Source: a virus. From it: a stretch of 38,173 bases of DNA. Positions 12,858 through 38,173 of the stretch are shown here, piece by piece (positions within the stretch are counted from its first letter, which is position 1; the number at the start of each line of letters is the position of its first letter). The stretch is taken from positions 1 to 38,173 of IMG/VR virus record IMGVR_UViG_3300046530_000143, one strand, 5' to 3'. The translations under genes and the position numbers were made by a program. Below the pieces are notes generated by a model. It did not search any database. It worked only from the letters and a program-made list of their open reading frames with translations, and was not told where the DNA came from.

Positions 12858-12864
12858 AAACGAA

Positions 12865-12894
12865 GAAGCCCCAGTGCGGGAACACTGGGGCTTC
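12865..12894 (+). terminator. Strong stem-loop in the leader of the Rha-like gene
   Basis: GAAGCCCCAGTG (12865-12876) and CACTGGGGCTTC (12883-12894) form a perfect 12-bp stem with a 6-base loop. There is no U-tract after it, so it may act as an RNA barrier or attenuator rather than a classic terminator. Confidence 0.5.
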
Positions 12895-12928
12895 GGGAAA
12901 CGAGATCAACTTCGGAGAAGAAATCGTC

Positions 12929-23468: not shown

Positions 23469-23469
23469 T

Positions 23470-23799
23470 TCATTTCACCTCGATTGAGGCAGATAGGACT
23501 TCTAGCCAGGTGTCATCCTCGGCAAGAGCAAAGTACAGCGTCACAAGGCCCTCATGGGAGTGATACGAAATATAGCCCCGAATCTCCTCACCCTGATTAC
23601 AGATCCCTGTGTGGTCCACTATCCCTTCCTCTAAGCAATCCCATATCTGCGGCATTGATAATTCTCGGGCGCTAGCTAAGTCGTTTATGTCAACCGAGTA
23701 GGAAATCTTTTCAGAATCCAACCCGATGTCTCGGACACGCCTCGTCAGCAGCTTCGGGTGGTCATTAATCTTGGCAATGTTTGAGATTTCTGAACTCAT
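23470..23799 (-). CDS. Putative toxin of a type II TA-like pair (DUF4258-like)
   Basis: The protein has 109 residues, starting at MSSEISNIAKINDHP. ATGs at 23808 and 23823 are also in frame, but the second lies at or upstream of the predicted transcription start. The C-terminal part (RELSMPQIWDCLEEGIVD, GYISYHSHEGLVTLYFALAE, WLEVLSASIEV) has the helix-strand-strand rhythm of DUF4258/RelE-fold proteins. Assignment as a toxin rests on this and on the adjacent antitoxin-like gene. An active site is not evident. Confidence 0.6.
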   Translation of the reverse strand: MSSEISNIAKINDHPKLLTRRVRDIGLDSEKISYSVDINDLASARELSMPQIWDCLEEGIVDHTGICNQGEEIRGYISYHSHEGLVTLYFALAEDDTWLEVLSASIEVK

Positions 23800-23821
23800 T
23801 ATGACCATCCCGTTTTTCTTC

Positions 23822-23850
23822 ATAATAGGTATTTGATACCTGTTATGCAA
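23822..23850 (-). promoter_or_regulatory. TA promoter with palindromic operator
   Basis: On the minus strand, -35 TTGCAT (23850-23845) and -10 TATTAT (23827-23822) are exactly 17 bases apart. The spacer holds AGGTAT-CAA-ATACCT (palindrome 23827-23841), a perfect 15-base inverted repeat. A repressor bound there would block RNA polymerase, as antitoxins do in autoregulated TA operons. Confidence 0.7.
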
Positions 23851-23863
23851 GAAAAATTGGAGG

Positions 23864-24586
23864 TCAGTTTTTCTGAGCCGTAGCGGACCCCCCGAATAGC
23901 TTTCGAATAAGATTCGGCCCCTGATTCCGCACATTCCCGACATCCTTGCTCACCTCGAACCAGGTGAATTCCTCGGTCGGCCTGCAGCAATCCTTGGCGA
24001 TCTCGGCAGCCCGCTCTGGCGTGGTCTCTGGATCGACCCATTCCCGGGCGCGCTCAGGGCTCAGCACCACCGGGCGGCGGTCGTGAATATCCACCATGCC
24101 CTGATCTGAATCAGCCGTGATGATCACAAAACCGTCCTGTGGATCCTGCTCCAACCCCTGATGCACTTCCGCCAGCGCGGCGAAGAACATCGGACCTTCC
24201 TCCTTCAGCCTGATGAAATAAGGCTGCTTCTTCTTAGGGTCATCCGGATCTTTTACCCATTCAAACCAGCCGTTCGCCGGCGCAAGTGCGCGCCCATTCG
24301 GCCATAGCTGTTTGAAAAACTTCCCAGTCATCACGGTTTCTACCCTGGCATTGATCGGGGCAGGGCGCTTCCCTTCACCTTTCGCCCAGAACGGCGACCA
24401 TCCCCACTTCACCTTGTCGACGCTCAGCCCCTCGGCTGTCCGCCGGATAATCTCAACGCGCGTGCTTGGCGCTACGTTGTAGCGCTCAATAGGCCAGAGG
24501 TCATAGCCGTTGATGATCAGCTGCTGGGGCGCCAGTTCCTTGAGGTAGTGGTCCATCGGTTCGTAGATCGAGTAGCGTCCGCACAT
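23864..24586 (-). CDS. SOS response-associated peptidase-fold protein (SRAP, YedK/HMCES)
   Basis: The protein has 240 residues. MCGRYSIYEP places Cys2 at the mature N-terminus, which in this family forms a thiazolidine cross-link with abasic sites in single-stranded DNA. NVAPSTRVEIIR, WGWSPFWAK, NARVETV, RALAPANGWFEW and a later HDRRPVVL are the family's conserved blocks. A longer in-frame start at 24910 is wrong because it would bury the catalytic Cys. A LexA box lies 61 bases upstream, so it is probably SOS-induced. It is divergent from 24678. Confidence 0.93.
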   Translation of the reverse strand: MCGRYSIYEPMDHYLKELAPQQLIINGYDLWPIERYNVAPSTRVEIIRRTAEGLSVDKVKWGWSPFWAKGEGKRPAPINARVETVMTGKFFKQLWPNGRALAPANGWFEWVKDPDDPKKKQPYFIRLKEEGPMFFAALAEVHQGLEQDPQDGFVIITADSDQGMVDIHDRRPVVLSPERAREWVDPETTPERAAEIAKDCCRPTEEFTWFEVSKDVGNVRNQGPNLIRKLFGGSATAQKN

Positions 24587-24646
24587 GCTGTCACCTGTCG
24601 AAAATCGGCTTATACAGTGTTGACCACAGCACCTCAGCTTAGTTAA

Positions 24647-24662
24647 CTGTACGCATATACAG
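24647..24662. promoter_or_regulatory. LexA (SOS) box
   Basis: CTGTACGCATATACAG fits the gammaproteobacterial LexA consensus CTGT-N8-ACAG exactly. It lies between the divergent SRAP gene and the 24678 gene and could repress both. TATAAG on the minus strand near 24610 may be the SRAP -10. Confidence 0.85.
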
Positions 24663-24677
24663 TATCGAGCGACAACC

Positions 24678-24971
24678 ATGCATTTCCTTGTAACCCCTCG
24701 CAGACGCCTCGGCGTGGCACTGACTGCGAAAGAGGTCAGAGACGCCACTCCTATAAAGGGTGACGTGCAGATGAATGAGTCGGGCAACACCAACCTTGGC
24801 CGCGGGACGGTTGAGGCGTTCATCATGAAGACGGGGGACGGACCCGACATTCTCCCGCGACTGCTGGACGCGAAGGTAACCGGTCTGGGGACGACGGGCT
24901 TGAACATCACCGGTGTAGAAGAGGTAGACGGGGCTTTCTATTTCCAGTCGTGGTGGTGTCGCTTTGGTTGA
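24678..24971 (+). CDS. SOS-linked hypothetical protein
   Basis: The protein has 97 residues. Its start lies 15 bases after the LexA box, so induction on DNA damage is likely. The sequence MHFLVTPRRRLGVALTAKEV followed by RDATPIKGDVQMNESG and ending in AFYFQSWWCRFG is not assigned to a family. The order with a divergent SRAP gene and the next gene, overlapping by 8 bases, suggests a DNA-damage role, by context only. Confidence 0.65.
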   Translation: MHFLVTPRRRLGVALTAKEVRDATPIKGDVQMNESGNTNLGRGTVEAFIMKTGDGPDILPRLLDAKVTGLGTTGLNITGVEEVDGAFYFQSWWCRFG

Positions 24972-25242
24972 GAACCCGCTGGCCGATTGGCGGACGGCGA
25001 TCAAGGCTCGCGATGACCTGGTCACCTACCCGGAGGCTCATCGGCGCAAGCTGGTCGAACTGGCGATGCTTGCCCGCCGGCGGAAACAGGTCAGCGCCGA
25101 GGAGTTGAGCGAAATGCTCGAGCTTTCGGACGCGGCCAAACTCTGGGGCTTGCTCGAATGGGAGGAGGCCGAACTCATCGGTCTTTTCGATGGCGGTGCG
25201 CGCACGGAGGATGGCATTCAAATAATAAGAGGAAGAGGGTGA
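24964..25242 (+). CDS. SOS-linked hypothetical protein, second gene
   Basis: The protein has 92 residues with a TTG start at 24964, overlapping the previous gene by 8 bases. The frame is open upstream only to 24928 and offers no ATG or GTG. It is helical and charged (RRKLVELAMLARRRKQVSAE, then ELSEMLELSDAAKLWGLLEW), and the middle could be a winged-helix-like DNA-binding unit. It is the last gene before the prophage's right att site. Confidence 0.6.
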   Translation: MVENPLADWRTAIKARDDLVTYPEAHRRKLVELAMLARRRKQVSAEELSEMLELSDAAKLWGLLEWEEAELIGLFDGGARTEDGIQIIRGRG

Positions 25243-25265
25243 ACGTCGGCAGAACGCCGGAGACA

Positions 25266-25306
25266 TGGCTAAAAAGCCATAGTGACTTTCCGAGTGACAT
25301 AGTGAA
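25266..25306 (+). other. Hairpin and AGTGA repeats near the prophage end
   Basis: ATGGCT-AAAA-AGCCAT (25266-25281) is a 6-bp stem. AGTGA then occurs at 25281, 25293 and 25301. Short direct repeats 90-110 bases from the att core are where integrase or excisionase arm sites would lie. This is weak evidence, and the rest of 25243-25391 shows nothing else. Confidence 0.35.
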
Positions 25307-25391
25307 TTACGGTAAAACGCGGTTAGGCATCGTTGCAGCGAGCGCCAAGCCGGAGAGCCTTATGTTATGCGGGCTGTAGGCCAGTCCGCTT

Positions 25392-25442
25392 GCATGGGGT
25401 GCTAGGGGTCGAGTGTTCGAATCACTCCGTCCCGACCATATT
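25392..25442 (+). repeat. Attachment site: 3' half of tRNA-Pro(GGG), left copy
   Basis: The 51-bp segment matches 36007-36057 except for one base (T at 25409, G at 36024). It encodes the 3' half of a tRNA: anticodon loop ATGGGGT with GGG, the end of the anticodon stem GCTAG, T-arm GAGTG-TTCGAAT-CACTC, acceptor strand CGTCCCG, then ACCA. The 5' half is absent here, so this is a junction copy and not a working tRNA. Confidence 0.85.
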
Positions 25443-26091
25443 TTGTAAAGGGAATCAGCCACTTACAGGTTTGATTCCCTTTTTTATTTCTGCTCGGCGC
25501 AAAATCTGCGCAAAACTGGCGCAAAACTATCCTGCGATTTCCCTGATATCCAGGTCGGGTACGGCCTCGGACCAGACCACTTCTGCGTGGTCCTTCTGAT
25601 AGTTTTTGGTCATCTCCTCGCTGGCGTGGCCGGCGCTCTTTTGCCCGTCCTTTCCGGCTTCGGTCGGAGATGCGCAGGACTTCTTCGAAAGCGGCAATCA
25701 GTTCGTCGCGCTGCTGTGTAAACGCCACCGGCTCAGGCGGATAAAACAGGTGCCGCATATTGGCCACGTTCACGATGTCGGCGTCGGCTGGGAAAACTTC
25801 CAGCGCATCGCGATCGTCACGGCCAAGCTCGCGCTTCAGCTGCATCAGCTTGGCCCAAGTGATCTGGTCGACCCAGCTGTCACCGTTGTGGAGTGCACGG
25901 CAAACGCTCATGCGTTGAAATCCGCCAGCCTCGCTATAGACCTGGACAAGGAAACCGCCCGAGCGCCAGACCTCCGTCAGGTTGGATGCCCTGATTTCCG
26001 GCCACTGATCCTTCGGCACCTGGCGCAGGGTGCGCGGCTGCTTGCTGCTCTCTTTGGCGAGCAGTCGGCGTTGGTTGCGATCAAGGCTCAT
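25402..26091 (-). CDS. DUF7694-like phage protein with an aberrant fused C-terminus
   Basis: The open frame gives 229 residues. The authentic part, from MSLDRNQRRLLAKESSKQPR to about AAFEEVLRIS (26091 to about 25668), resembles DUF7694-type phage proteins: VPKDQWPEIRASNLTEVWRS, GFLVQVYSEAGGFQRMSV, then ITWAKLMQLKREL. After that the frame runs out of phase through the integrase remnant and into the att site, giving a basic tail with no family likeness. Its start overlaps the upstream stop (ATGA). It is best viewed as a 3'-truncated gene; function unknown. Confidence 0.65.
   Translation of the reverse strand: MSLDRNQRRLLAKESSKQPRTLRQVPKDQWPEIRASNLTEVWRSGGFLVQVYSEAGGFQRMSVCRALHNGDSWVDQITWAKLMQLKRELGRDDRDALEVFPADADIVNVANMRHLFYPPEPVAFTQQRDELIAAFEEVLRISDRSRKGRAKERRPRQRGDDQKLSEGPRRSGLVRGRTRPGYQGNRRIVLRQFCADFAPSRNKKGNQTCKWLIPFTKYGRDGVIRTLDP
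25446..25490 (+). terminator. Terminator just inside the left att site
   Basis: AAAGGGAATCA (25447-25457) and TGATTCCCTTT (25472-25482) form an 11-bp stem with a 14-base loop, followed by TTTATTT. It would terminate transcription reading through the tRNA-Pro segment. Confidence 0.8.
25497..25526 (+). repeat. Three GCGCAAAA repeats at 11-bp spacing
   Basis: GCGCAAAA starts at 25497, 25508 and 25519, exactly one helical turn apart, between the att core and the integrase stop. A fourth copy is at 35882-35889 near the right att. Such phased repeats are the usual look of arm-type integrase binding sites. Confidence 0.65.
25527..25667 (-). pseudogene. Tyrosine integrase remnant (C-terminus only)
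   Basis: Reading the minus strand in the frame ending at TAG 25527-25529 gives TEAGKDGQKSAGHASEEMTK, then NYQKDHAEVVWSEAVPDLDI and a final REIAG. The GH-x-S/D-x-x-M-T-x-x-Y pattern is the C-terminal active-site region of tyrosine recombinases and includes the nucleophilic Tyr. Everything upstream, including catalytic Arg and Lys regions and the arm-binding domain, is missing. The frame breaks into the DUF7694-like gene near 25667, so a deletion has removed most of int and whatever lay next to it. Confidence 0.8.
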
Positions 26092-28081: not shown

Positions 28082-28284
28082 AACCCCTCCTGCGGATACG
28101 TGCCCACTTCGCCCTGGTCGGCGGCGTTGGCAATCTCATTGATCTGGCGCGCAAACTCTCGCGCTTGCTTGGGCGTGATGGTTGAAATTGGGAGACGGTG
28201 AAGGCTGATGGCTGTACCGCCTTCGGCGAGCTGGTGGATCGTGGCCTTGATGGTGTGGCGCGCTGCTGGCGCTGGGCCGGTCAT
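28078..28284 (-). CDS. Small hypothetical phage protein
   Basis: The protein has 68 residues, starting at MTGPAPAARHTIKATIHQLA. ATG at 28284 overlaps the upstream stop. LHRLPISTITPKQAREFARQ near the middle is a helix-rich stretch. An upstream in-frame extension to 28380 is in the shadow of the neighbouring gene. The family is unknown; it is common in position next to Lar-like genes. Confidence 0.6.
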   Translation of the reverse strand: MTGPAPAARHTIKATIHQLAEGGTAISLHRLPISTITPKQAREFARQINEIANAADQGEVGTYPQEGL

Positions 28285-28838
28285 TGGTCTTCCCCGGTGT
28301 AGATGCGCCAATCGATCTTCTTGCCTTTCACCAAAAAGCCCCAGTCGCCTTGCCAACGGCTGGTGATGAACAGCGTCCACACTCCGCCGTCGCTGACAGA
28401 GTTGATACGGTGGTACTCGCCGTGACTGAGCTGCGCCGTGTCGCCCCGGTCACGCTTGAGCCATTCGCATGCATCGCGAGTCAGCCATTCATGCCACTTG
28501 GGATCTGCATCCTGAACCAGACAACTCCGTACCGACTCTTTCCACTCGTTGCTGGCATGTCGCTGTTCTAGCAGGCCCTGGCGCATGCCGGCTACGCTGA
28601 ACGCTTGGCAGGGTGTACCGCCGACGAGGACCGGCGGCGCCTTGATCTTCCCGGCGAGTACCAGGGCAGCGAGCTTGGTCATGTCGCCATGGTTCTTCAC
28701 CTTCGGGTAGTGGTAAGCCAGTACCGCAGATGGGAAGGGTTCAATCTCGGCGAACCAGACCGGGTTCATGCCCAGAGGCTCCTAGGCAGCCGAAGCCGCC
28801 TCGATCCCCGAACAAACGGAGCCGTATTCGATCTGCAT
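28281..28838 (-). pseudogene. DNA cytosine methyltransferase (dcm-type), broken and fused
   Basis: From ATG 28838 the minus strand reads MQIEYGSVCSGIEAASAA, then TAG at 28784-28782, then EPLGMNPVWFAEIEPFPSAV in the same frame. The stop replaces the Trp usual at this point in phage Dcm proteins (one base, TGG to TAG). Motif I (CSGI) and the catalytic PCQ of motif IV (VLVGGTPCQAFSVAG) are present. After MRQGL, near 28571, the sequence changes to an unrelated protein C-terminus (EQRHASNEWKESVRSCLV, ending WRIYTGEDQ), so target-recognition and later motifs are lost. An ATG at 28769 could still start a 162-residue hybrid. It has no methyltransferase activity in this form. Confidence 0.8.
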
Positions 28839-28913
28839 AGGATCCTCGCCAGTGGCGTCATTCGTGGAAGTGGGTTATTAAGTGTGAAGACTTTCAAATG
28901 ATGTGGAGCGCTC

Positions 28914-29618
28914 ATGAACGAAGACAACAGGTCACGAAGTAAGCTGGTATTTTGTGCTGCACTAGTTTTCTTGAGCGCGCTTACGCTAGCGTTATTCTTG
29001 CTTTTCAACAATAAATTTACTGGATCTGAATTTACCGTGTTTGTCCTCGCATTCTCGGTAATGGCTTTGATTATTACGTTCTCGCCCGAGGTTCAAGAAA
29101 TTTCCATAGCTGGTAACGTCATCAAGCTTCGCGAGATTAGAAGCAAAGCAGAAAAAACCATAAAGCAGCTTCGTTTAACGCAGATTCAAGTTCTAAAGTT
29201 TCTGCTCGGTGTTGGTGGTTTTTTGAGGCCAGCCCACCCATTCGCCTTGGATAATCCTACGATAGCGCCTGAGTTTTGGAATATTATTGATGAGTGTCGC
29301 TCAATCAAAGGGTTGAAACCTCTCAAAGACGATTTGATTAAAGTCATTGACGGATTTCAAATGCATCTGCTTGTGGAAATTGGTCCGATACGTCCTGGGC
29401 AGCAAACTATATCTATTAACTCCAGCATGTCTAAGGCAGATGTACAATCAGCTGTAGGAAAACCTGACATGGTTTTTCTAAAAGATAAATGGGGTTACAG
29501 CACTGGAGATGGTGAGGAGCAGAAAATTACTCTCGAAAGAATGGAGAGATTTTTGGAGGTAAAATTGTCTGAATATTTAAAACTATCTGAACTGCGTCGA
29601 GAAATTTCTAGGCTATGA
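28914..29618 (+). CDS. Two-helix membrane protein, cargo gene
   Basis: The protein has 234 residues with GGAG 6-7 bases before the ATG. Two membrane segments lie near the N-terminus: LVFCAALVFLSALTLALFLL and EFTVFVLAFSVMALIITF. A cytoplasmic helical region follows (REIRSKAEKTIKQLRLTQIQ), then a soluble domain. DNA is clearly AT-richer than its neighbours and it is on the opposite strand to the phage genes around it, so it looks acquired. No family is recognised. A membrane anchor plus soluble domain is common among defence effectors, but this is speculation. Confidence 0.65.
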   Translation: MNEDNRSRSKLVFCAALVFLSALTLALFLLFNNKFTGSEFTVFVLAFSVMALIITFSPEVQEISIAGNVIKLREIRSKAEKTIKQLRLTQIQVLKFLLGVGGFLRPAHPFALDNPTIAPEFWNIIDECRSIKGLKPLKDDLIKVIDGFQMHLLVEIGPIRPGQQTISINSSMSKADVQSAVGKPDMVFLKDKWGYSTGDGEEQKITLERMERFLEVKLSEYLKLSELRREISRL

Positions 29619-29676
29619 GAAAAACGTGGAAAAAGCCGACGTTGCTATTGCGCTCTCAACCGACGCGCTGGTTTGA

Positions 29677-30450
29677 TCAGGCACTGGCGATGATGTCGGC
29701 TTCGGCCAGTTCGCAGAAAAAGGAGCAGGCGGGAATCTTCTCGTTTCGTCGCACTGGCCCTTCGCCGAGGTCTCTCAGCGAGAACCGCTCGTTGGTGATG
29801 CGGTTTCTGTGAAGGTACGAGCCTGGGCCTAGCAGGTCTTGGACTTGGCAAAGCGATTCGAACTGCGCGGGGAAATCTTCGCGTATGGCTCGAAAATATC
29901 CTTCACCGCCTTTCACGCATCCGATGCAATTGGCGTTGTCGTAGCCCATCCGGTACATGATCGGGATGTCGATGCCGGCGCGCTCGACCATAGCTTTACA
30001 ATCGTCCTTGCCCAACCCGCGCTCGATCAGAGGCGCTATGGCTGGACGATCGGGATTGCGCTCGCAGAAGTCGTCGAAGCGGGTGCGTTCTTCCGCCGTG
30101 AAGCCGAACACCATCACGTCGCCTGGCTGCTTCCATTGATCCAGAACCCGCCGCTTGAGCAGCTTCGTGCAGCAGGCGCCCCAACGGTTCTTGATGTACC
30201 GTTCGCGGTTGAACACCTGGATGATGTCCGCATTGTACTTTTCGTCGCGGAGCACCGTAATCGGTTGGCCAAACCAGCCTTCGCATTCGTCGGCAAACCG
30301 GCGATTGTCCGGGTGCTCGTTTGCCAGATAGGCGTTAACGATCACAACGTCATGGGTGGCGCCGTATTGGGCGATAGCGAGCTTAGTGGCGACAGCTGAT
30401 GCAGCGCCACAGCTGAACTGGCAGACAATCCTAAAGGTCGGGTTGGCCAT
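29677..30450 (-). CDS. PAPS reductase-like PP-loop protein (phage type)
   Basis: The protein has 257 residues. RIVCQFSCGAASAVATKLA near the N-terminus is a PP-loop variant (SxGxxS). Cysteines in WGACCTKLLK and CIGCVKGG may bind metal. The family is the phosphoadenosine phosphosulfate reductase-like group often carried by phages, which may act in nucleotide or DNA sulfur chemistry; the real substrate is unknown. GAGG lies 6-7 bases before the start. The gene appears intact. Confidence 0.85.
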   Translation of the reverse strand: MANPTFRIVCQFSCGAASAVATKLAIAQYGATHDVVIVNAYLANEHPDNRRFADECEGWFGQPITVLRDEKYNADIIQVFNRERYIKNRWGACCTKLLKRRVLDQWKQPGDVMVFGFTAEERTRFDDFCERNPDRPAIAPLIERGLGKDDCKAMVERAGIDIPIMYRMGYDNANCIGCVKGGEGYFRAIREDFPAQFESLCQVQDLLGPGSYLHRNRITNERFSLRDLGEGPVRRNEKIPACSFFCELAEADIIASA

Positions 30451-30500
30451 TTATAACCTCGTTGATTATGATTGGCTCATCAACCTACAAGGATGTGAGC

Positions 30501-31271
30501 ATGGATAAAGAAATTCTGAAACAAGCTTTCACCGAATCAAGCGTTCCAGAGTACAAATGCCCAAGATGCTATAAGGGGCATTTGCGACTTGAGGGGAAAT
30601 TCACTGGGCTTGAAACTGAGGGTAGCGCCTCAGCGCATCACGAGGAATGGTGGGAGCCGGAATATATTGAACTGATCTTCAACTGCACTCTAAAGTGCGT
30701 CTCATGTTCTGAGTTAGTATTTGTTGTCGGGAACGGTGTTGTCGAAGAAGAATATGATGTAGATGAAAAAGGCGAGTGGTCGAGAGATTGGACATCCTAT
30801 TATAGGCCCACCTTCTTTCATCCTCCATTGCAGCTGATTGATTATCCCGCCAAGGCGCCAAAAGAGGTAGTGTCGCCATTATCTACAGCCGGTGCTATGT
30901 TTTTTTCAAGTCCAGCGTCAAGCTGTAACGCTATACGAGCCTCGGCTGAAGAGGTACTAACACATCTCGGAATTCCTGTCAAAGCTGAAGATAAATTCAT
31001 ATCCTTTGGAAATCGAATCAATCTTTTGCCCGAGGATCAGGTTTCAACCAGAAATTTGTTCAACGCCATACGTTGGATAGGTAATCACGGGAGCCATCCA
31101 GGTAACGAGATAGAGTTTGAGGACGCCCTTCATGCTCTGGAGATTATGGAGTATTTACTTGAAGAGGTTTTTGGTGATCGCAAGCAGGCACTAGAAGCGC
31201 TTGCAGCCGCCATCAATGATAGAAGGGGGCCAGTTGGACGATTGTTTAAATTCGAGTCAAACAGCAATTGA
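30501..31271 (+). CDS. DUF4145-domain protein with N-terminal zinc ribbon
   Basis: The protein has 256 residues. ATG at 30501 has AAGGA 7 bases upstream, which rules out the earlier in-frame start. CPRCYKGHLRL and the later CVSC form a CxxC-x(n)-CxxC zinc ribbon around residues 15-70. The C-terminal helical domain (FNAIRWIGNHGSHPGNEIEF, DALHALEIMEYLLEEVFG) is DUF4145, a HEPN-related fold common near restriction and defence genes. R-x-x-G-N-H replaces a clear R-x4-H, so catalysis is uncertain. Codons are AT-richer than in phage genes. Confidence 0.75.
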   Translation: MDKEILKQAFTESSVPEYKCPRCYKGHLRLEGKFTGLETEGSASAHHEEWWEPEYIELIFNCTLKCVSCSELVFVVGNGVVEEEYDVDEKGEWSRDWTSYYRPTFFHPPLQLIDYPAKAPKEVVSPLSTAGAMFFSSPASSCNAIRASAEEVLTHLGIPVKAEDKFISFGNRINLLPEDQVSTRNLFNAIRWIGNHGSHPGNEIEFEDALHALEIMEYLLEEVFGDRKQALEALAAAINDRRGPVGRLFKFESNSN

Positions 31272-31361
31272 GAAGTTTCTAGCAGATGATATCACTGGCG
31301 AATAGGTTGGTGGTGGGCTATACGTGGTGACCGGCATGGGGCCGGGTCAAGGAGTGATGCG

Positions 31362-31871
31362 ATGAAGCGTTTTACGGATAGCTTGCGGTCGTCGGTAGCG
31401 CATCAAGACTGGTATGTAGCGCTTGCCTCGGCGCTTACGCTGCCAGATGTTTGTGGTCGGTTACAGCATCCAAGTCAAGGCAGCGGGGCTAGGTACGCGG
31501 CATGGTTCGATGGTTGGGTTGCTCCCGACTACGTCCATCAGCTTCCGGGAATCGGACATCACTGTTTTCTGACTGGCGCAGACTGCTACGCGCTCAGGTG
31601 CAGCTATCTACATGAAGGAGGCAGCGACATAACGCAGCAGAAAGCCCGCAAGGCACTCGATGACTTTCATTTCATAATCCCACCCAAGAATGGAACGATC
31701 CATAGGAATAAAATCAACAACACACTGCAGCTCCAAGTAGATAAATTCTGTTTAGAGATAGCTGATGCTGTTGATAAGTGGGCGGCCAGCGTCATGGAGG
31801 AGGGTGACATTCAGGAGCGAATGAAGTCTTTGCTGATGATCCACAACTTCGTGCCGGGAATTCAGTACTGA
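31362..31871 (+). CDS. Conserved hypothetical cargo protein
   Basis: The protein has 169 residues with AAGGAG 7 bases before the ATG. Notable blocks are ALTLPDVCGRLQHPSQGSGA, RYAAWFDGWV, FLTGADCYALRCSYLHEGG and NNTLQLQVDKFCLEIADAVD. My recollection is that this is a widespread uncharacterised family, but I cannot give it a name. ALRCSYLHEG (R...LHEG) looks like a helical active or binding site. It probably acts alone; the 90-base upstream gap is short. Confidence 0.65.
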   Translation: MKRFTDSLRSSVAHQDWYVALASALTLPDVCGRLQHPSQGSGARYAAWFDGWVAPDYVHQLPGIGHHCFLTGADCYALRCSYLHEGGSDITQQKARKALDDFHFIIPPKNGTIHRNKINNTLQLQVDKFCLEIADAVDKWAASVMEEGDIQERMKSLLMIHNFVPGIQY

Positions 31872-31906
31872 CGAGGTTCACCTATTCGTCAGCATCTGGA
31901 TCTACT

Positions 31907-32176
31907 TCAGCCATACCGGCTTCTTCCAACTGACGCGTTAGGCTTTCTCAGCCGCCGGGCTTGTTCTTCGCGCGGAGACGCCAGAAACGATAAGGCCAAG
32001 TCCTGCCACAGCTCCTGAATCTGGCTATAGCCGTGATCCTTCATCGCGGTGTTCATGGCCGATCTGGTGCCCGCTGGCGTTTCGATCTTTTGCGTTTCGA
32101 TGCCCAGCTTCGCGGTCTTCTCGCTTTGCCGCTCCCGGTAAGCCGCAGAGTGCTTCGCGGCTGCTGTCTTTTCCAT
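31907..32176 (-). CDS. Small helical phage protein
   Basis: The protein has 89 residues with GGAGA 7 bases before the ATG. AAAKHSAAYRERQSEKTAKL near the start, then ETPAGTRSAMNTAMKDHGYS and IQELWQDLALSF, resemble small phage proteins with a basic YRxRQ helix followed by a ribbon-helix-helix-like unit. DNA binding is plausible. It is the last gene of a leftward pair. Confidence 0.65.
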   Translation of the reverse strand: MEKTAAAKHSAAYRERQSEKTAKLGIETQKIETPAGTRSAMNTAMKDHGYSQIQELWQDLALSFLASPREEQARRLRKPNASVGRSRYG

Positions 32177-32260
32177 TGGGTGGTTCTCCGAACTGATGCG
32201 CTGGCAAGTTCAGCCAGGCTTGCCGGCGACGCTGGTGCACGCGGTTGTTGATCTTGCGCA

Positions 32261-32785
32261 TCAGGTGGGTTCGGCCAGGGTGATGTTGTGTTCTTTGGCG
32301 ATGCGCCGAACGGTCCGGCTGTCAATTCCTATGGCGGTGGCGCTGGGCGATGCGGTGTTGCCCGCGGCGGCCAGCTCACGAACGCGAGGCTCGTGCTTGT
32401 CGCGCCGCGCCTTGAGGTTTTTCGGGTGGTTGCCGATCGCAGTGAACGGGATCTCGCCACTTTTACCTGCCGGAACCAACTCGATGCGGTGACCTGTCGC
32501 GGGGATGTGATTGATCTGGGCCGACAGCTCCGAGATTCTCTGCTTGTGCTTGTGCTTGTGCTTGTGCTTGTGCTGGTCTGGCAAGCTTTCGCCGATCATT
32601 GCAGCACCGCCTGTCTGTCCTGTTGCCGCGATCTGCCTCCGCAAATGATCACGCTCGTCGGTGACGGCGGTTAGCATCTCGACTAATCGCTCAACATTTT
32701 GGCGATGCCGTCCTACCTCCCCCCGCAACACTTCATTTTCAATTTCGATCAGTTGCACATTCTCGGCGTCGTAGTCGGTGGACAC
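32261..32785 (-). CDS. Phage protein with coiled coil, His-Lys repeat and C-terminal HTH
   Basis: The protein has 174 residues, starting at GTG 32785 (GGAG 8 bases upstream). The N-terminal half is a coiled coil (LIEIENEVLRGEVGRHRQ, VERLVEMLTAVTDERDHLRR). HKHKHKHKHK follows at about residues 71-80, encoded by a hexamer repeat. The C-terminal 45 residues (RVRELAAAGNTASPSATAIG, then IDSRTVRRIAKEHNI) form a resolvase/Hin-type helix-turn-helix. It could be a regulator or small-terminase-like DNA-binding protein. Confidence 0.65.
   Translation of the reverse strand: MSTDYDAENVQLIEIENEVLRGEVGRHRQNVERLVEMLTAVTDERDHLRRQIAATGQTGGAAMIGESLPDQHKHKHKHKHKQRISELSAQINHIPATGHRIELVPAGKSGEIPFTAIGNHPKNLKARRDKHEPRVRELAAAGNTASPSATAIGIDSRTVRRIAKEHNITLAEPT
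32541..32574 (+). repeat. Hexanucleotide tandem repeat (TGCTTG x5.7)
   Basis: Five perfect TGCTTG units (32541-32570) and a partial sixth lie inside the minus-strand gene at 32261-32785 and encode alternating His and Lys. Copy number changes would stay in frame. Confidence 0.9.
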
Positions 32786-33014
32786 TTTCAGTTCTCCAAT
32801 ACTGTTTGGACATACAGCAATCAAGACGATGGGAAGACAGCCAGTGTTGCTGACGAGCTGCGGTTGGGAGAGGGACTGGTCGGCGGACGCCGTGAAGGAT
32901 GCGGGGCATTGCGATGTGAGCTGGTCGGAAAGCTCGGGGTATGGATAACTTCGAAACTAGCAATTCCACGCAGTTGAATTGCACGCAGATTTGTACGTGC
33001 AGCAGAAAAACGAA

Positions 33015-33042
33015 GGGCTTGCATCGCTGCAAGCCCTTGTTT
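33015..33042 (-). terminator. Terminator beyond the tRNA-Thr fragment
   Basis: GGGCTTGCA and TGCAAGCCC form a 9-bp stem (extended to 11 with flanking AA/TT) around a 4-base loop. On the minus strand it is followed by CGTTTTT, so it fits as the native terminator of the tRNA-Thr gene from which the adjacent fragment came. TTGTTTG follows on the plus strand, so it may act both ways. Confidence 0.7.
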
Positions 33043-33045
33043 GTA

Positions 33046-33090
33046 TGGTGCCGGCACTAGGAGTCGAACCCGGGACCTACTGATTACAAG
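33046..33090 (-). pseudogene. 3' fragment of tRNA-Thr(UGU)
   Basis: The minus strand from 33090 reads CTTGTAATCAG (anticodon loop with TGT), then TAGGTC, T-loop TTCGACT, acceptor strand TGCCGGC and ACCA at 33046. The T-stem has one mismatch and one G-U pair. The D-arm and 5' half are missing. GCCGGC lies directly before CTTGTAATCAG (33091-33096), so it is either a tRNA with a deleted D-arm or, more likely, an att-type 3' fragment from another element's junction. Confidence 0.75.
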
Positions 33091-33342
33091 GCCGGCGCCC
33101 TTGTGGCTGACAAATGCGGCATCGAGGCGTCCTCGGCACGCGAGGGAAGGGCGTGAGCGCCGTAGTCCGCTGGACTATCCGACCAATGAACGCGACGAAA
33201 TGCTATCAAAATTGTGATGGCCCTATGGATAACTGCCGAAAATGATATGATTTCATCGCAATTCCGTGACTCGCCCATCTTTTTGCCGTCTAACCCGTAT
33301 TGCGCCAACCGGCTCATCAGTTCGCTCATCGGAGGAGGGATC
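33091..33342. other. Gene-free stretch upstream of the IrrE-type peptidase gene
   Basis: After the tRNA-Thr fragment the DNA is GC-rich to about 33180 with no credible gene. A 5' extension of the peptidase frame runs from 33214 but has no ribosome binding site. An AT-rich part (33200-33260), with TATGAT at 33246-33251 as a possible -10, probably holds the promoter of the next operon; no good -35 is seen. The stretch 32786-33014 likewise shows no gene. Confidence 0.4.
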
Positions 33343-34329
33343 ATGACCAATATTCAAAGCATCTACTCTGCCCTGAACACTCACGGACTGTCTAAGAAGC
33401 ATCTCACTCGCATCATGCCTGAATGGTGGTCAGCGGAAGTTGAGGCGTCCCCTGGCGGAGCGCAGCGAGCAAAAATATATCTCGCCAAAGCCCTCAGCCT
33501 ACAGATCAGGCCTTTCAGCGAAGAGCCGCCGCGGATTGCCTTTGACCTGCCTACAGAGAAGCGTTTTAAGCTTTCAGCTAAAACCTCGCCTGAGGATGTT
33601 TCTGTAGCTGTCGCGCTCGCGAGGAGCGCTTCTAGAATAGCGCTCAATGCAATGTCCAGAACATATCAGGCGCCGCCCCAAGGTGCAGCGCAAATTCGTG
33701 AGCATATCCTTTCGACTGGCGCGCCTTGGGTAGGCCTACCTCAGATCTTGGATGCATGCTGGAACAACGGTATTCCGGTGCTGCATTTGGCGTCTCCTCT
33801 TCTTGGCAGAAAGAAGATGGACGGTATCGCGATGTCAATTAATGGTAGGCCGTCAATTGTCCTGTCCAATGTCCGGAAGAATGGCTTTCTGCTATTTCAT
33901 CTCGCGCATGAGCTAGGCCACATTGCTCTAGGTCATCTGACTGCGAACGGTGCTATTGTTGATGACGAGATCACTAAAGGTGAGTCGGACGAAGGCCGCA
34001 ATCCCCAAGAGATTGAAGCTGATCGATTTGCTATAGAGCTTTTGACCGGAAACGCGGACACCCGCCTTACGTTGCCGCGGCGGGTATATGCTCCTCAGTT
34101 GGCTGAAATTGCATTGCGGTTTGGAAGGGAAAGAAAAATCGATCCCACGCATGCTGTGCTGAACGTGGCACACAATAACAAGGAGATCTATCCCTTGTGT
34201 GTTGGTGCACTCAAAGAAATCTCAGGAGCAGTAAGTGACCAGGATGTTGTGTCAGAACGCGTTTTCAAGAATCTGAATGATGGCCTGGATCCAGACAGCG
34301 AACACCTGCTACGGAACCTTATCGCGTAA
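33343..34329 (+). CDS. ImmA/IrrE-type metallopeptidase of a two-gene module
   Basis: The protein has 328 residues. GGAGGAGGG before ATG 33343 fixes the start; a frame from 33214 is not used. HELGH at residues 189-193 and the later EIEADRFAIELL (about 222-233) are the zinc-binding and Glu motifs of the IrrE/DUF955 family. The first 110 residues (SIYSALNTHGLSKKHLTRIM, PEWWSAEVEASPGG, RAKIYLAKALSL) look like a helical sensor or HTH-like domain of the kind found fused to such peptidases. The partner gene begins immediately after the stop (TAAATG). Likely role: cleavage of a repressor or antitoxin when triggered. Confidence 0.82.
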   Translation: MTNIQSIYSALNTHGLSKKHLTRIMPEWWSAEVEASPGGAQRAKIYLAKALSLQIRPFSEEPPRIAFDLPTEKRFKLSAKTSPEDVSVAVALARSASRIALNAMSRTYQAPPQGAAQIREHILSTGAPWVGLPQILDACWNNGIPVLHLASPLLGRKKMDGIAMSINGRPSIVLSNVRKNGFLLFHLAHELGHIALGHLTANGAIVDDEITKGESDEGRNPQEIEADRFAIELLTGNADTRLTLPRRVYAPQLAEIALRFGRERKIDPTHAVLNVAHNNKEIYPLCVGALKEISGAVSDQDVVSERVFKNLNDGLDPDSEHLLRNLIA

Positions 34330-34974
34330 ATGATCGTGCTCGCCGACAATGATGTCTTAGTAGCACTAGCGCAATGCGACTTGGTCGATGAGGCGTTGAC
34401 CGTACTGGGCTGCGGATTTAACGACTGTTATGTGCTTGGCGAGGCTCCCTTCTCCTTATACTTGACCGATGAGGCCAAGTGTTTCGACAAAAGACTGGGC
34501 AATCACGCAGCTTTTGACCGTCTTTGTTACATCGTAGATTCATGCCAAAAGCTGGGTCCAGCAGATGAAAACATAGGGCTTCTGGAAGAGTTGCTTCAGA
34601 TTGAGGGTGTGCATGATGGCGAGCTGCAGCTTACATTGCATGCGGAAAATCTCTATAGGGCTGACATGCCGTTTACTGTAACGACTGGAGATAAAACCTT
34701 CCTTAAGGCAATTTACAACTCCGACTGCATGCATGCCCAAGCAATCCTATCCCAGCGCGTCGAGTGTTTAGAGTCATTGTTGCTTAAGGCGCTAGCGTTA
34801 TATGGGCATGAGTATATAACTCATAAAATTAGCATGGGTAAGAGCACTACTACGAATTTAAAGAAGTTCGACGGTGTACTAAGTATGGCATTCGGTAACG
34901 GTCGCGATATGGAGCACACGACGGCCTGCCTCAATAATTATATGGATCCAGTGCGATATTTCTTGCGACCTTGA
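34330..34974 (+). CDS. PIN-like domain protein, partner of the peptidase
   Basis: The protein has 214 residues and starts directly at the stop of the peptidase gene, so it is co-translated. MIVLADNDVLVALAQCDLVD resembles the first strand and helix of PIN nucleases, with Asp6 and Asp8. Further acidic residues at Glu98 (DGELQL) and Asp121 (TTGDKTFL) are spaced like the PIN metal site. If so, it is a nuclease, perhaps the effector of the pair. The C-terminal 80 residues are unassigned. Family membership is a judgement from motif spacing. Confidence 0.65.
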   Translation: MIVLADNDVLVALAQCDLVDEALTVLGCGFNDCYVLGEAPFSLYLTDEAKCFDKRLGNHAAFDRLCYIVDSCQKLGPADENIGLLEELLQIEGVHDGELQLTLHAENLYRADMPFTVTTGDKTFLKAIYNSDCMHAQAILSQRVECLESLLLKALALYGHEYITHKISMGKSTTTNLKKFDGVLSMAFGNGRDMEHTTACLNNYMDPVRYFLRP

Positions 34975-35166
34975 TAGGTCGCGTCTCACCGGATTATCTC
35001 AAGATCGGCAAACTCAGATGATAAACATTCGTGCGATCCATCCTCGTGACCTGTAGACTGCTGCTGAGTGGCCCGGATGTCCGTTGTGTGGGCGTTAAGC
35101 GAACTCTGAAGTAGCTGATCTACCGGTATATGTGGCGCTGATATGAATCATGATATGGGGAATTAG

Positions 35167-35787
35167 GTGAGCGTCGAGTCTATTGAAAATGAAGTTAGGT
35201 CTTTGGTGGAAGATGAGACCGACTTGTTAAATTTAGTGGTGAAGCTTCACTTTTCGATAGATAAGGCACTTGACAAGGCTTTATTTGAGGCTCTCCCTAT
35301 GGCTAGTGTGATGGAGCTAAGAAGAGTTTCATTTTTGCTGAAGTTTGATTTTCTCTCCGCTTTGAGTGTCTTGAGCAGCGATTTTCGCCAGTTGTTTGAT
35401 TACTGCAATAGCATACGAAATACGTTTGCTCATAACCCATATGCTAAATTTAATGATAAAGACATAGTTAAGGCAAAAAGTTTGTTGATTTCCCACTCCC
35501 GACCAGTTGTTGCTAAAGATTTTAGAGGGGAAAAAGACAGCGTGGAAGTTTTGAAGACCCTTTTTACCGTTTGCTTCTTGCAGGTAGTAGTGTCATATGA
35601 GGCGCTGTGCAGAACCAAGGTTATTAATTTCGTCGCCGGCGAGATGGCTCTAGAAGCCTCCGCCGGTAAAAAACGAAAGTTCCAAGCGGAATTATCTGTG
35701 CACCAAGAGTTTGAACGCAGGTGCGTGGAACGTTTGACTGCACTTTATCCGGCGGTAGCTCCAGGGGGGGGGTCAAGAAGGCCCTAA
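35167..35787 (+). CDS. HEPN-like protein with R-x4-H motif
   Basis: The protein has 206 residues and begins with GTG at 35167; GGGG lies about 7 bases upstream. It is fully helical, with RNTFAH at residues 84-89, the R-x4-H pattern of HEPN ribonucleases, set after IDKALDKALFEALP and FDYCNSI. The C-terminus is basic and ends in a Gly/Arg run. HEPN proteins cut RNA in toxin-antitoxin and abortive infection systems; no antitoxin-like gene is next to it. It is AT-rich like the other cargo. Confidence 0.65.
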   Translation: MSVESIENEVRSLVEDETDLLNLVVKLHFSIDKALDKALFEALPMASVMELRRVSFLLKFDFLSALSVLSSDFRQLFDYCNSIRNTFAHNPYAKFNDKDIVKAKSLLISHSRPVVAKDFRGEKDSVEVLKTLFTVCFLQVVVSYEALCRTKVINFVAGEMALEASAGKKRKFQAELSVHQEFERRCVERLTALYPAVAPGGGSRRP

Positions 35788-35881
35788 CGAAATGATTCTG
35801 CATGCTGCAGAGTGTTTAGGTCTTGCCCCATAGTTGCTGCGAGATTCATTAGTGAAAAGCGCAACTCAGCAGAAAAGACCT

Positions 35882-35889
35882 GCGCAAAA
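35882..35889 (+). repeat. GCGCAAAA copy near the right att site
   Basis: It is the same 8-mer as the three phased repeats at 25497-25526, here about 118 bases inside the right tRNA-Pro repeat. A lone site on one arm and several on the other is a common integrase layout. The rest of 35788-36006 shows only a T-rich run after GCGGGC near 35963. Confidence 0.45.
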
Positions 35890-36006
35890 CCTCCGCTGGA
35901 GGCCACGTGTTTTCGTTTGCGAAATCACAAGAAACGCCGTATTTTGCAGGCTCTGTTGCGGGCTTTTTTCTTTACGAATCAAGTGCTTGCGTGCGTACAG
36001 GCCCCA

Positions 36007-36057
36007 GCATGGGGTGCTAGGGGGCGAGTGTTCGAATCACTCCGTCCCGACCATATT
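36007..36057 (+). repeat. Attachment site: 3' half of tRNA-Pro(GGG), right copy
   Basis: The 51 bp are identical to 25392-25442 apart from G at 36024 in place of T. It has the same orientation and includes the anticodon loop, T-arm, acceptor strand and CCA. The base change falls in the variable-loop region (GGGGG versus GGGGT). Confidence 0.85.
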
Positions 36058-36069
36058 ATTCAATGACTT

Positions 36070-36098
36070 AGGCCAATGTTCGCACCATTGGCCTTTTT
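36070..36098 (+). terminator. Terminator downstream of the right tRNA-Pro copy
   Basis: AGGCCAATG (36070-36078) and CATTGGCCT (36086-36094) form a perfect 9-bp stem with a 7-base loop, followed by TTTT. It takes the same place as the terminator after the left copy. Confidence 0.85.
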
Positions 36099-36103
36099 CA
36101 TGC

Positions 36104-36121
36104 GCGTGACTTTTGCGTGAC
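36104..36121 (+). repeat. GCGTGAC direct repeats at 11-bp spacing
   Basis: GCGTGAC occurs at 36104-36110 and 36115-36121. The layout (att core, terminator, 11-bp-phased repeats) copies that of the left end of the island, with a different repeat unit, suggesting the start of another integrated element. Confidence 0.45.
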
Positions 36122-36191
36122 TCGTCGTTTCTTCTCACCCCTGTCTCTATCCAGAGTCGTCAGCGCTAGTTCACTCGGTTCGGTTGCTACT

Positions 36192-36446
36192 TTACTTGCG
36201 CTTCGATGTATTGATCAGCCTCGCTGCCAAATAGTGACAAACAACGCCTTCCTCTGCAGGTGCGCCGTCGACTCTGCGAAAATGACCGATTGTACCTCCC
36301 ATGACATCGTTGATCAGGCGCATCGCCAATCCAGATGAATCTCGGCTGGATGCCTGTCGCCTTGGCTGTTTTAGTGTGTGCCATGTCGGTTGCCTACGCG
36401 CGGCGGCTATGCGCCGTGAGTGTGGGGACTTGTGCAAGTGAGACAT
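36192..36446 (-). CDS. Hypothetical protein, possibly decayed
   Basis: The protein has 84 residues, starting at MSHLHKSPHSRRIAAARRQP behind a GGGGG-containing leader on the minus strand. The N-terminus is very basic. The later part (GLAMRLINDVMGGTIGHFRR) looks like folded protein. A second minus-strand frame overlaps and could be the real one if a frameshift is present. No family is recognised. Confidence 0.4.
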   Translation of the reverse strand: MSHLHKSPHSRRIAAARRQPTWHTLKQPRRQASSRDSSGLAMRLINDVMGGTIGHFRRVDGAPAEEGVVCHYLAARLINTSKRK

Positions 36447-36568
36447 AGGTATACCCCCGCCCGCGGTCGGATGCAGGCTATAGGCTGCTGTTGTGTTACC
36501 GTTCGTCGGAAACCGAGCACTATCAAGAGGTTGGCTACTCAATGGGATAGCCAAAGGAAATGGAATTT

Positions 36569-36787
36569 ATGCGACCGAAAGTTTGTGAAGCACCTAATGC
36601 GCTCGACCTCGTCAAGGAACTGGATGACGCTACCGAGCAGATGATGGAGATAGGCGTCGACCAAGTCGGCAGCGCCCAGTGGCAGGATGCCTTCGAGCGC
36701 CAGCAGCGGGCGTTCCGGAATTGGCGCGACTACCTTTATCGGAAAGCAGACGAGAAGCCACCAGCGCGACTGCTGAGCATCGTGTGA
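36569..36787 (+). CDS. Small hypothetical protein
   Basis: The protein has 72 residues; ATG 36569 is preferred because AAGGA lies about 11 bases upstream, while the ATG at 36560 is too close to it. It is acidic and helical (ALDLVKELDDATEQMMEIGV), with a C-terminal FERQQRAFRNWRDYLYRKAD. The family is unknown. It stands alone, with 120 bases of gene-free DNA upstream. Confidence 0.55.
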   Translation: MRPKVCEAPNALDLVKELDDATEQMMEIGVDQVGSAQWQDAFERQQRAFRNWRDYLYRKADEKPPARLLSIV

Positions 36788-36879
36788 ATCTCCACCTTTC
36801 GCGGGGGCCATGGGAGAAGTGATCGAGCCCGGACGGCAATGTAGATTCCGGGGACATCAAGTCCTCACCAGCGCCGGAA

Positions 36880-37089
36880 CTAGAAACGATTCAGACGAAG
36901 CCACTCATCTGCCACTTCGCCCATTGTCAGCGACTCATTCGACTTGATCCACGCCATGAACGGCCGGTCGAACTTGAATGCTTCACCACACTGAGAAATC
37001 AGAAACCGCCGAACGTTTTGCGTATTGCGGTAATTCTTGTCCAATGGGGTAGCTCGGGTAATGGGTTCTGAGTGCCAATCGAAAGCCAT
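36880..37089 (-). CDS. DUF6434-like protein
   Basis: The protein has 69 residues, starting at MAFDWHSEPITRATPLDKNY with AAGGA 6 bases upstream; longer frames to 37203 lack support. YRNTQNVRRFLISQCGEAFK, then FDRPFMAWIKSN and TMGEVADEWL, are conserved blocks of a small SAP-like family (DUF6434). The family is possibly DNA-binding, of unknown role. It is common in bacterial chromosomes as well as in islands. Confidence 0.7.
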   Translation of the reverse strand: MAFDWHSEPITRATPLDKNYRNTQNVRRFLISQCGEAFKFDRPFMAWIKSNESLTMGEVADEWLRLNRF

Positions 37090-37197
37090 GGTCATTCCTT
37101 TGATGACGCCGATCTCTTTCGGCGCGCCGGAGAGAATAGCAGCTTGACTCACAATCACAGCGCCGCACGTTATGATGCATATCGACATCGATACTCT

Positions 37198-37228
37198 CTG
37201 CATGTCTGCATGTCTGCATGTCTGCGTG
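37198..37228 (+). repeat. CTGCATGT tandem repeat
   Basis: Three perfect 8-bp units (37198-37221) and a partial fourth lie between the DUF6434-like gene and the GTG-started small gene. The rest of 37090-37286 holds GTGATATCGTCAC near 37248, a short dyad that could be an operator. Confidence 0.8.
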
Positions 37229-37286
37229 GCTAGGTAGCGGGGTTGAGTGATATCGTCACGTCTAACCCAAGCGAAGGAGATGCATT

Positions 37287-37442
37287 GTGGCCGCAGTAAA
37301 AACGTATGTTTTCAAGCTCAAGGCTGGCAATGGGTCAGGCATGAGCAACGTCCTGCAAAATGGTGTGGATCAGCGTGAGGCCGAGCGTAAGATTTTGCAG
37401 AAATATCCGGGCGCGACGATTCTTGATGTGCGCCAGCAGTAA
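37287..37442 (+). CDS. Small hypothetical protein (51 residues)
   Basis: It starts with GTG and AAGGAGA 6 bases upstream. The sequence begins MAAVKTYVFKLKAGNG and ends AERKILQKYPGATILDVRQQ: a strand, a helix and a final strand. The KYPxAxIxD ending matches the 53-residue protein at 37605, so the two may be paralogues. A CCCAGC/GCTGGG stem follows the stop at 37447-37464 with no U-tract. Confidence 0.65.
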   Translation: MAAVKTYVFKLKAGNGSGMSNVLQNGVDQREAERKILQKYPGATILDVRQQ

Positions 37443-37604
37443 AAAGCCCAGCTTCTGCGCTGGGGTCTGTGCTACTGCAACTGTGAGGGCGCTGTGAGTC
37501 ACAGTGGTACAAGCAGCCTCGCTTCTACAGGCAGGCATGTGGACAGATGAAGTGGGTGCATAGCCGTTGAGGCTACGCCATATATGGTTTTCAGGGAGGT
37601 TTGC

Positions 37605-37766
37605 ATGTCAACAAATTATCAGGCGCAGTACAAGTCTTCGGCTACACAGCAATGGCAGACGAAAACCTATGGATCAGAAATGGGGTGCATGCAGGAGCTC
37701 GCGCGCCTTCGAGACAAATATCCATTCGCGCGCGTCATTGATCCTCAAGGCCGTGTCGTAAGTTGA
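37605..37766 (+). CDS. Small hypothetical protein (53 residues)
   Basis: GGGAGG lies 7 bases before the ATG. The sequence begins MSTNYQAQYKSSATQQWQTK and ends LRDKYPFARVIDPQGRVVS. The fold pattern strand-helix-strand and the KYPxAxxxD motif resemble the 51-residue protein 160 bases upstream. The family name is unknown. Both genes are separate, each with its own good ribosome binding site. Confidence 0.65.
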   Translation: MSTNYQAQYKSSATQQWQTKTYGSEMGCMQELARLRDKYPFARVIDPQGRVVS

Positions 37767-37863
37767 TCTAACCCCCCTCAGGACAGGCGTCGTAAGTGTG
37801 CGATCCAGACTGACGGGCACGCCTCTCAGTTGCCGGCGCGATTTCTCGATCTGGTCGACTTTC

Positions 37864-37986
37864 ATGTCGACCAGTACGAAGGACTGCGCAAATCACCCAT
37901 TGCCGTATCTAAATGGTAAGGAGTGCGCGCGCATCGCTCATCAGCTCGCCGTTGAAGCAAGCCAGATGAAATCGGGGCGCCAATGA
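37864..37986 (+). CDS. Possible small protein (40 residues)
   Basis: The sequence begins MSTSTKDCANHPLPYLNGKE and ends QLAVEASQMKSGRQ. The protein looks real (C-terminal helix CARIAHQLAVEASQM), but no ribosome binding site is clear. The ATG lies in the loop of a 9-bp hairpin (37851-37874). A GTG at 37798 would give 62 residues. Confidence is low. Confidence 0.35.
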   Translation: MSTSTKDCANHPLPYLNGKECARIAHQLAVEASQMKSGRQ

Positions 37987-38013
37987 GCATCACTCGCAAC
38001 GCTATCCCGCACC

Positions 38014-38173
38014 TCAACCCTTCGCCACACTGAACCCCGAAAACAGGCTGGTCGCCGGTTGATGATCGCCCTCGTTGCGGTACTGGCCAAACTTGGCGTA
38101 TGAGTCGCTACTGTGGGTGTCGAACATCGTAGAGATGCCTTTCTTGTCGAACACGTTCTCGCCGTTCTTCGTG
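38014..38173 (-). CDS. C-terminus of an unidentified protein (5' beyond window)
   Basis: The minus-strand frame is open from the window edge to TGA at 38014 and gives 52 residues, including NGENVFDKKGISTMFDTHSS, FGQYRNEGDHQPATSLFSGF and a final SVAKG. It seems to be the end of a larger protein. The style recalls C-termini of large type VI secretion lipase effectors (DUF3274), but this is a weak guess from memory. The bases here may belong to the host chromosome rather than to a mobile element. Confidence 0.55.
   Translation of the reverse strand, partial: TKNGENVFDKKGISTMFDTHSSDSYAKFGQYRNEGDHQPATSLFSGFSVAKG

Follow-up and report, generated by a model that had tools for sequence, protein, structure and literature searches.

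Tyrosine-integrase islands and phages are known to use attP sites of the tDNA type, in which a fragment of a tRNA gene carried by the element rebuilds that gene upon integration; in the portion of the Islander account drawn upon here, crossover in the anticodon loop (subsite A) with a 3' fragment is well described (PMC4383910). Orphan tRNA gene fragments are reported, in an excerpt of a second source, to arise from integrating elements (PMC9897764). An attP with a tDNA fragment is a known kind of site, and the instance described here is a new one. No attP relic of this kind was present among the leading matches of a literature search, and the papers on "pseudo-attP" sites among those matches appear to concern genome-engineering tools. 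In addition, the genes beside the new instance can be set next to RosmerTA, in which, going by the part of that report used here, ImmA-type antitoxins are paired with varied toxins (PMC10440598). There, RmrA, an ImmA-type protease antitoxin, lies beside a toxin gene; in our locus an M78 metallopeptidase gene is accompanied by a partner with a predicted PIN fold.

The window, meaning the whole stretch of DNA that was analysed, comes from IMG/VR: it is a virus contig, 38,173 bases long, that holds the 3' part of a tRNA-Thr(UGU) gene and a terminator. With the tDNA sites of the Islander account, as far as it was drawn upon, the window shares a gene-restoring 3' fragment and an anticodon-loop crossover; unlike them, its integrase is a remnant and its attP lies inside an element at another tRNA. 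Whereas the orphan fragments in the excerpt of PMC9897764 mark the ends of chromosomal elements, the fragment in the window is a phage-borne attP. We read it as the decayed attP of a temperate tailed Pseudomonas phage lineage, captured into a tRNA-Pro(GGG) element, with a probability of roughly 0.87. The features around the fragment are the following.

32943..33012, no strand: P arm of the tRNA-Thr attP, with an intact arm-type site TTGTACG at 32991 and a degenerate TTGCACG at 32979
33013..33038, minus strand: phage-borne intrinsic terminator of the restored tRNA-Thr gene (perfect 11-bp hairpin, covariation)
33046..33090, minus strand: att core, 3' half of tRNA-Thr(UGU), in which 33058 is T rather than C on the plus strand
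33091..33342, no strand: P' arm, with two degenerate arm sites and homology to P. petrae locus L024
33343..34329, plus strand: ImmA/IrrE-like M78 metallopeptidase gene (phrog_18577; Pfam PF06114)
34330..34974, plus strand: partner gene (phrog_15597) with a predicted PIN fold (adjacency, conserved acidic residues, AlphaFold)
about 34975..35065, minus strand: frameshifted C-terminal remnant of a tRNA-Thr integrase (DNA-level match only)

The minus strand of 33046–33090 is made up of the last 45 nt of tRNA-Thr(UGU), reading from CTTGTAATCAG to GTGCCGGCACCA and comprising the UGU loop, the 3' strand of the anticodon stem, the T-arm, the 3' strand of the acceptor and CCA. Compared with intact host tRNA-Thr(UGU) genes, this core is identical at 44/45 bases and starts in the anticodon loop. 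Within the window a 41-base part of it has a single match, and with up to three mismatches tolerated none of 100 shuffles yields one; the match is not due to chance. A complete cloverleaf is absent, and neither ARAGORN nor Rfam at its gathering threshold calls a tRNA here. The sequence-only reading had proposed a tRNA-Thr(UGU) 3' fragment with its terminator, and both are real; the limits it gave hold for 33046–33090, while 33091–33096 (GCCGGC), which it had counted in, is non-tRNA sequence. Exact searches of the viral collection with 57-base and 41-base pieces of the fragment returned no match, such searches being unsuited because nearly all relatives have C where the window has T.

The terminator hairpin is followed on the tRNA strand by CGTTTTT and can be folded in all 30 related loci. 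Across the covariation set, which consists of the window and 30 related loci (25 distinct rows), pairing is kept in 99.6% of cells, with two-sided changes at 4 of the 11 pairs. No shuffle out of 500 equalled the hairpin for both paired cells and two-sided changes, and 10/500 were as high for further pair types. The terminator hairpin is conserved as a structure. A query covering 32960–33090 was matched in 296 of 298 Pseudomonas genomes, as expected for a tRNA. Thirty loci were inspected individually, taken from the genomes at the top of the list with one best match each, thus from 30 of the 298. By a sequence rule 28 of them extend into a complete tRNA-Thr; the remaining two, L040 and L047, hold fragments, with P' arm sites after them. 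Arm sites of the type TTGT(T)ACG are found on the terminator (P) side in 22/28 intact loci and are missing there in six, in which the same hairpin may also be the host terminator. Since P-side arm sites occur in 22 of the 28, the terminator comes with the phage in most of the 30 loci, and where it is phage-borne, both the tRNA and its terminator are rebuilt by integration.

A further comparison is with a prophage of P. petrae (genome G011), in which two tRNA-Thr cores lie 41.4 kb apart, one of them within a tRNA-Thr that is complete by ARAGORN, and enclose terminase, tape-measure and J-like genes in a family scan. One end of this prophage consists of P arm, terminator and core, and the other of core, P' arm, M78 gene, PIN-fold gene and integrase. 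P arm, terminator and core of the window (32953–33090) align to the first end with 87% identity over 141 columns; for the P arm the alignment score is 70, against a shuffle maximum of 31 (0/500). No convincing match to the prophage was found left of 32926 near the fragment, which leaves the captured piece with a mere homology limit on its left. The second end aligns to window 33046–33968 with 73% identity over 939 columns, and from the core into the next gene (L024) identity is 79% over 359 columns. Taken alone, the non-coding part 33180–33342 matches at 80% over 164 bp (E 4.5e-30), and the 95 bp immediately to the right of the core (33091–33185) match weakly, one of 500 shuffles being as high. 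By E-value both arms match the P. petrae genome best; other loci are more identical on shorter P-side stretches, at up to 98% for the core alone and 93–95% over 83–98 bases. As the two flanks match opposite ends of one prophage, the arrangement is that of a joined attP (P-core-P'); judged by homology, the fragment is the core of such a site and neither an attL nor an attR scar. In the P. petrae prophage (L069–L071) and in the window, arms, core and gene pair are homologous and follow the same order, but that prophage has a full-length integrase and is located at tRNA-Thr, whereas the copy in the window is joined and decayed.

Phage records point in the same direction. A blastn search with window 32700–34500 matched 20 of them, six of which were examined. 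The best match is UFJF_PfPro of P. fluorescens (PQ412991, Peduoviridae). Its attP contains this terminator and core as well (79/87 columns), the hairpin being the same but for small differences and the core boundary falling at the same base. It differs from the window in its TTGTTACG arm sites, its whole annotated integrase and the single small ORF between core and integrase. The core match ends at 33090 in all five examined records that continue past the core, the sixth (Sirocco) ending at the core itself, and an integrase is annotated beyond the core in all three records with annotation there (UFJF_PfPro, OQ658368 and LPPA56). Several other matched records (D3, PaBG, PA1C and Caulobacter phages) are annotated as phage-borne tRNA-Thr genes, which differ in kind from an attP core. 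The fragment had earlier been described as a scar of integration; in UFJF_PfPro it is a normal part of a phage attP, which is the finding that the sequence-only reading had itself named as speaking against it, and that description finds no support.

The attP fragment is housed in a second, larger structure, whose features are as follows.

25392..25442, plus strand: tRNA-Pro(GGG) att core, copy 1, at the junction of a left phiPSA1-like prophage and the 10.6-kb element
25443..25660, minus strand: P' arm plus the remaining C-terminal part of the tRNA-Pro integrase that belonged to the element itself (up to 92% identity to related loci)
35881..36006, no strand: P arm of the tRNA-Pro element (75–81% identity to 15 loci)
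36007..36057, plus strand: tRNA-Pro att core, copy 2, at the right end of the element
36058..38173, no strand: read as chromosomal flank (downstream of an intact tRNA-Pro(GGG) in Pseudomonas G251)

The two tRNA-Pro repeats had been noticed from the letters alone and are borne out: they are 98% identical and bound the 10.6-kb element around the fragment. To the left of copy 1 lies a phiPSA1-like P arm (89% over 134 bp including the core), and left of 22.2 kb the family scan finds tape-measure, minor-tail, J-like and endolysin genes. The match of the right flank of copy 1 stops at 25660 in the best rows; among its 15 related loci an intact tRNA-Pro(GGG) is called by ARAGORN in 10, and the integrase C-terminal peptide is matched in all 15, in one at just 33%. 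For the 15 relatives of 35881–36006, ARAGORN calls tRNA-Pro in none and the core pattern is present in 12. Right of copy 2, the sequence behind the intact tRNA-Pro(GGG) of G251 is 81% identical up to 37146 and 99% identical over 38007–38173, and a terminator within 36058–38173 resembles that of loci L151 and L157. The same flank contains, at 36239–36307, a 23-aa internal piece resembling the phiPSA1 integrase, so older phage debris may belong to 36058–38173. A tRNA-Pro(GGG) called by ARAGORN at 25370–25438 was rejected as a gene, its 3' part being att core and its 5' part phiPSA1-like P arm. In our reading, two units stand in tandem at tRNA-Pro: a prophage on the left and, after it, the element that holds the piece with the tRNA-Thr attP. 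Window 28850–36010 gave partial matches only against 57 relatives of G251, the longest among the matches listed being 749 bases. It had further been argued that at least two integration events are recorded here. The part that stands is the second att specificity: a tRNA-Thr att within a tRNA-Pro-bounded element means that two or more integrating phages or elements have contributed DNA here. The part left without support is a tRNA-Thr scar at this place, the flanks being P and P' arms rather than host DNA. Nor does the opposite orientation relative to the tRNA-Pro repeats, which had been offered as evidence, carry any weight, because each att type has its own orientation.

Further observations concern this region and its relatives. 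Between 28914 and 35787 the element carries several defence-like genes, the M78/PIN-fold pair included; 29677–30450 encodes a PAPS-reductase-like protein with an SspD match and 30462–31271 a DUF4145 protein with a weak PD-T7-4 match. The ORF at 28281–28769 resembles a cytosine methyltransferase in its first part (residues 2–71) and matches phrog_4786, which carries the label cysteine dioxygenase, in its last (residues 92–161); by this composition it is a putative truncated or fused methylase. Near the att end of the left prophage, 23016–25266 contains an HTH protein with a sub-threshold Aca2-like match and an SRAP-family peptidase, and a Rha-like/anti-repressor gene lies inside the tail gene region of that prophage (12818–13774). 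Elsewhere, in genome G199, a stretch of about 11 kb on contig C1 (approximately 4170–4181 kb) contains three tRNA-Pro att cores, suggesting short tandem elements at tRNA-Pro.

Several other explanations of the fragment can be weighed against this background. The one that fares best, although improbable, is that P arm and P' arm stem from two prophages once in tandem at tRNA-Thr, the joint between them having moved later. Such joints exist: the fragment at L040 (genome G085) has TTGTACG sites on its left and TTGTTACG sites on its right, and L047 (G083), a fragment with P' sites and phage DNA on the P side, is also read as one. In the window, however, both arms find their best match by E-value in the single P. 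petrae genome, the record contains no second tRNA-Thr core, and the location is a tRNA-Pro. Slightly less probable still is an attL or attR scar left by integration at tRNA-Thr and later rearranged into the tRNA-Pro region. attL ends do look like 3' tRNA fragments with a terminator, and core-P' ends with the gene pair exist at L010, L013, L014–L017 and L024. Such core-P' ends have varied, host-like left sides: L014–L017 share nearly one right side and show three left sides (one common to L014 and L015, one in L016 and one in L017), as expected for host DNA on the left. Left of the fragment the window has, by contrast, a P arm that bears an arm site and aligns to the opposite end of the prophage; the right end of the window is a tRNA-Pro flank. 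A scar in the Islander sense would border host DNA on one side, with an intact cognate tRNA gene at the far end of the island; within the record there is no intact tRNA-Thr by ARAGORN, a single core and flanks of phage-arm type.

It is very improbable that the fragment still works as the attP of a complete phage whose circularly permuted DNA makes up the window. The P-core-P' order is indeed that of a circular phage genome, but the right end is tRNA-Pro flank, and the site itself looks worn. Only one intact arm site (TTGTACG) accompanies three degenerate ones, TTGCACG on the P side and, on the P' side, GGCACGCG at 33135 and TGAACGCG at 33187, where P. petrae has TGTACGCG at both; both flanks are homologous to the prophage arms. 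The core has changed as well. In 76 core copies with distinct surroundings, collected with a search pattern that leaves three bases free, T at 33058 was seen in 0/46 intact copies, 1/28 fragments (L100) and 0/2 copies at contig ends, all others having C; as L100 shares it, the substitution is not unique to the window. We take it to break the T-stem pair 50-64 (standard tRNA numbering). The integrase, finally, is truncated. Its remnant lies where an alignment to P. avellanae L010 with 87% identity ends, with a local score of 80 against a shuffle maximum of 46, and is significant at the DNA level (0/500 shuffles against both L010 and P. petrae); the comparison at the protein level was not significant. 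The LPPA56 integrase has full-length tblastn matches in L010, L013, L014, L016, L017, L024/P. petrae and L072 and no match in the window at E 0.01. Without an intact cognate integrase beside it the site is classed as a relic rather than a working attP, and lacking an integrase and with worn sites it is probably inert. PF00589 (Phage_integrase) has no match in G001, G003 and G005, nor on contig C3 of G011; the idea of an unusual recombinase was dropped, the LPPA56 tblastn showing a full-length relative on that same contig.

A tRNA gene without its D-arm, in which GCGCCGGC would form the 5' strand of the acceptor, had been offered as an alternative by the sequence-only reading and can be set aside as exceedingly improbable. 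Although GCCGGC is able to pair with the acceptor 3' strand and agrees with the host acceptor start GCCGGT at 5/6 bases (chance of about 0.0065 for a match of this quality or better at one fixed place), there are 26 copies of it in the window, not only the D-arm but also the 5' half of the anticodon stem is lacking, the T-stem is mismatched at one pair, neither ARAGORN nor Rfam makes a call, and relatives have P' arm DNA in the same place.

For the preferred reading of a captured attP, the following course of events can be proposed. The phage lineage integrates at tRNA-Thr(UGU) by means of a tyrosine integrase, taken to bind the core plus arm sites of the TTGTACG type on either side. In a working phage the attP includes the tRNA 3' half and the terminator and thereby yields a complete and terminated tRNA gene upon integration; in this lineage the ImmA/M78 and PIN-fold pair is located between attP and integrase gene. 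About 2.1 kb of such a phage (32.94–35.07 kb, comprising P arm, core and P' arm together with the gene pair and the integrase tail) would then have been captured by an element whose own integration site was tRNA-Pro(GGG), beside another prophage. The most likely routes are phage recombination and transfer of the attP as passenger of a (selected) gene pair. Since then the captured attP would have decayed, becoming probably inert as an att site. None of the other genomes searched has the same junctions; the capture step is accordingly one that we infer, and the junctions may stem from an assembly fault in the IMG/VR contig.

The gene pair itself is found in other loci too. PF06114 matches the M78 protein at E 4.1e-05 and 23.8 bits (cut-off 22) on a longer frame starting at 33214, and in PADLOC the protein matches the capP, PD-Lambda-2_B and RmrA models, the first two outscoring RmrA (E 2e-6). 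In the partner protein D6, D8, E98 and D121 are invariant across 14 sequences. Its AlphaFold model (pLDDT 90.4) is matched best in Foldseek by PAE2754, PAE0151 and VapC proteins, all PIN-domain proteins, with E 5.9e-3 at best, and the model makes a PIN fold likely, though not certain. NCBIfam has no model for the pair, and a PDB sequence search with the PIN-fold family gave nothing useful. Relatives of the M78 gene were collected from 12 viral-contig loci and 7 species-genome loci (two contigs being in both sets), and in all 19 the partner adjoins it. Nine of these loci, from seven separate contigs, begin with the tRNA-Thr core and P' arm and continue with M78 gene, partner and integrase, so that both an upstream core and a cognate integrase after the pair are present; the other ten have no adjoining core and no full integrase, and two of these ten (L011 and L021) begin inside or at the gene, their upstream side lying outside the sequence. 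At L027 the pair is followed by a C-terminal integrase remnant (57% over 21 aa), with no core within 1.5 kb upstream, and this is a possible second case of a pair carrying an integrase tail. Separately, the viral contig L019 (IMGVR_UViG_3300017792_000012) has a tRNA-Thr core at both ends (1–28 and 36185–36212), an internal ImmA/PIN-fold pair that does not adjoin a core, and no PF00589 match.

A broader and tentative idea, which we consider possible but doubtful, is that the gap between attP and integrase in tRNA-Thr phages is a slot for an ImmA plus PIN-fold pair of putative defence type, from which the pair repeatedly exits with an integrase tail and pieces of attP; the window and L027 would fit such an exit. 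If this were true, orphan tRNA fragments and integrase tails in islands would be footprints of defence-gene capture, and att-proximal gene pairs may more generally drag att debris along. For the tRNA-Thr phages, integration brings a structurally conserved terminator along with the tRNA 3' half. For islands, a tRNA fragment can be an imported attP rather than an insertion scar, and counting such fragments as integration events would lead to an overcount.
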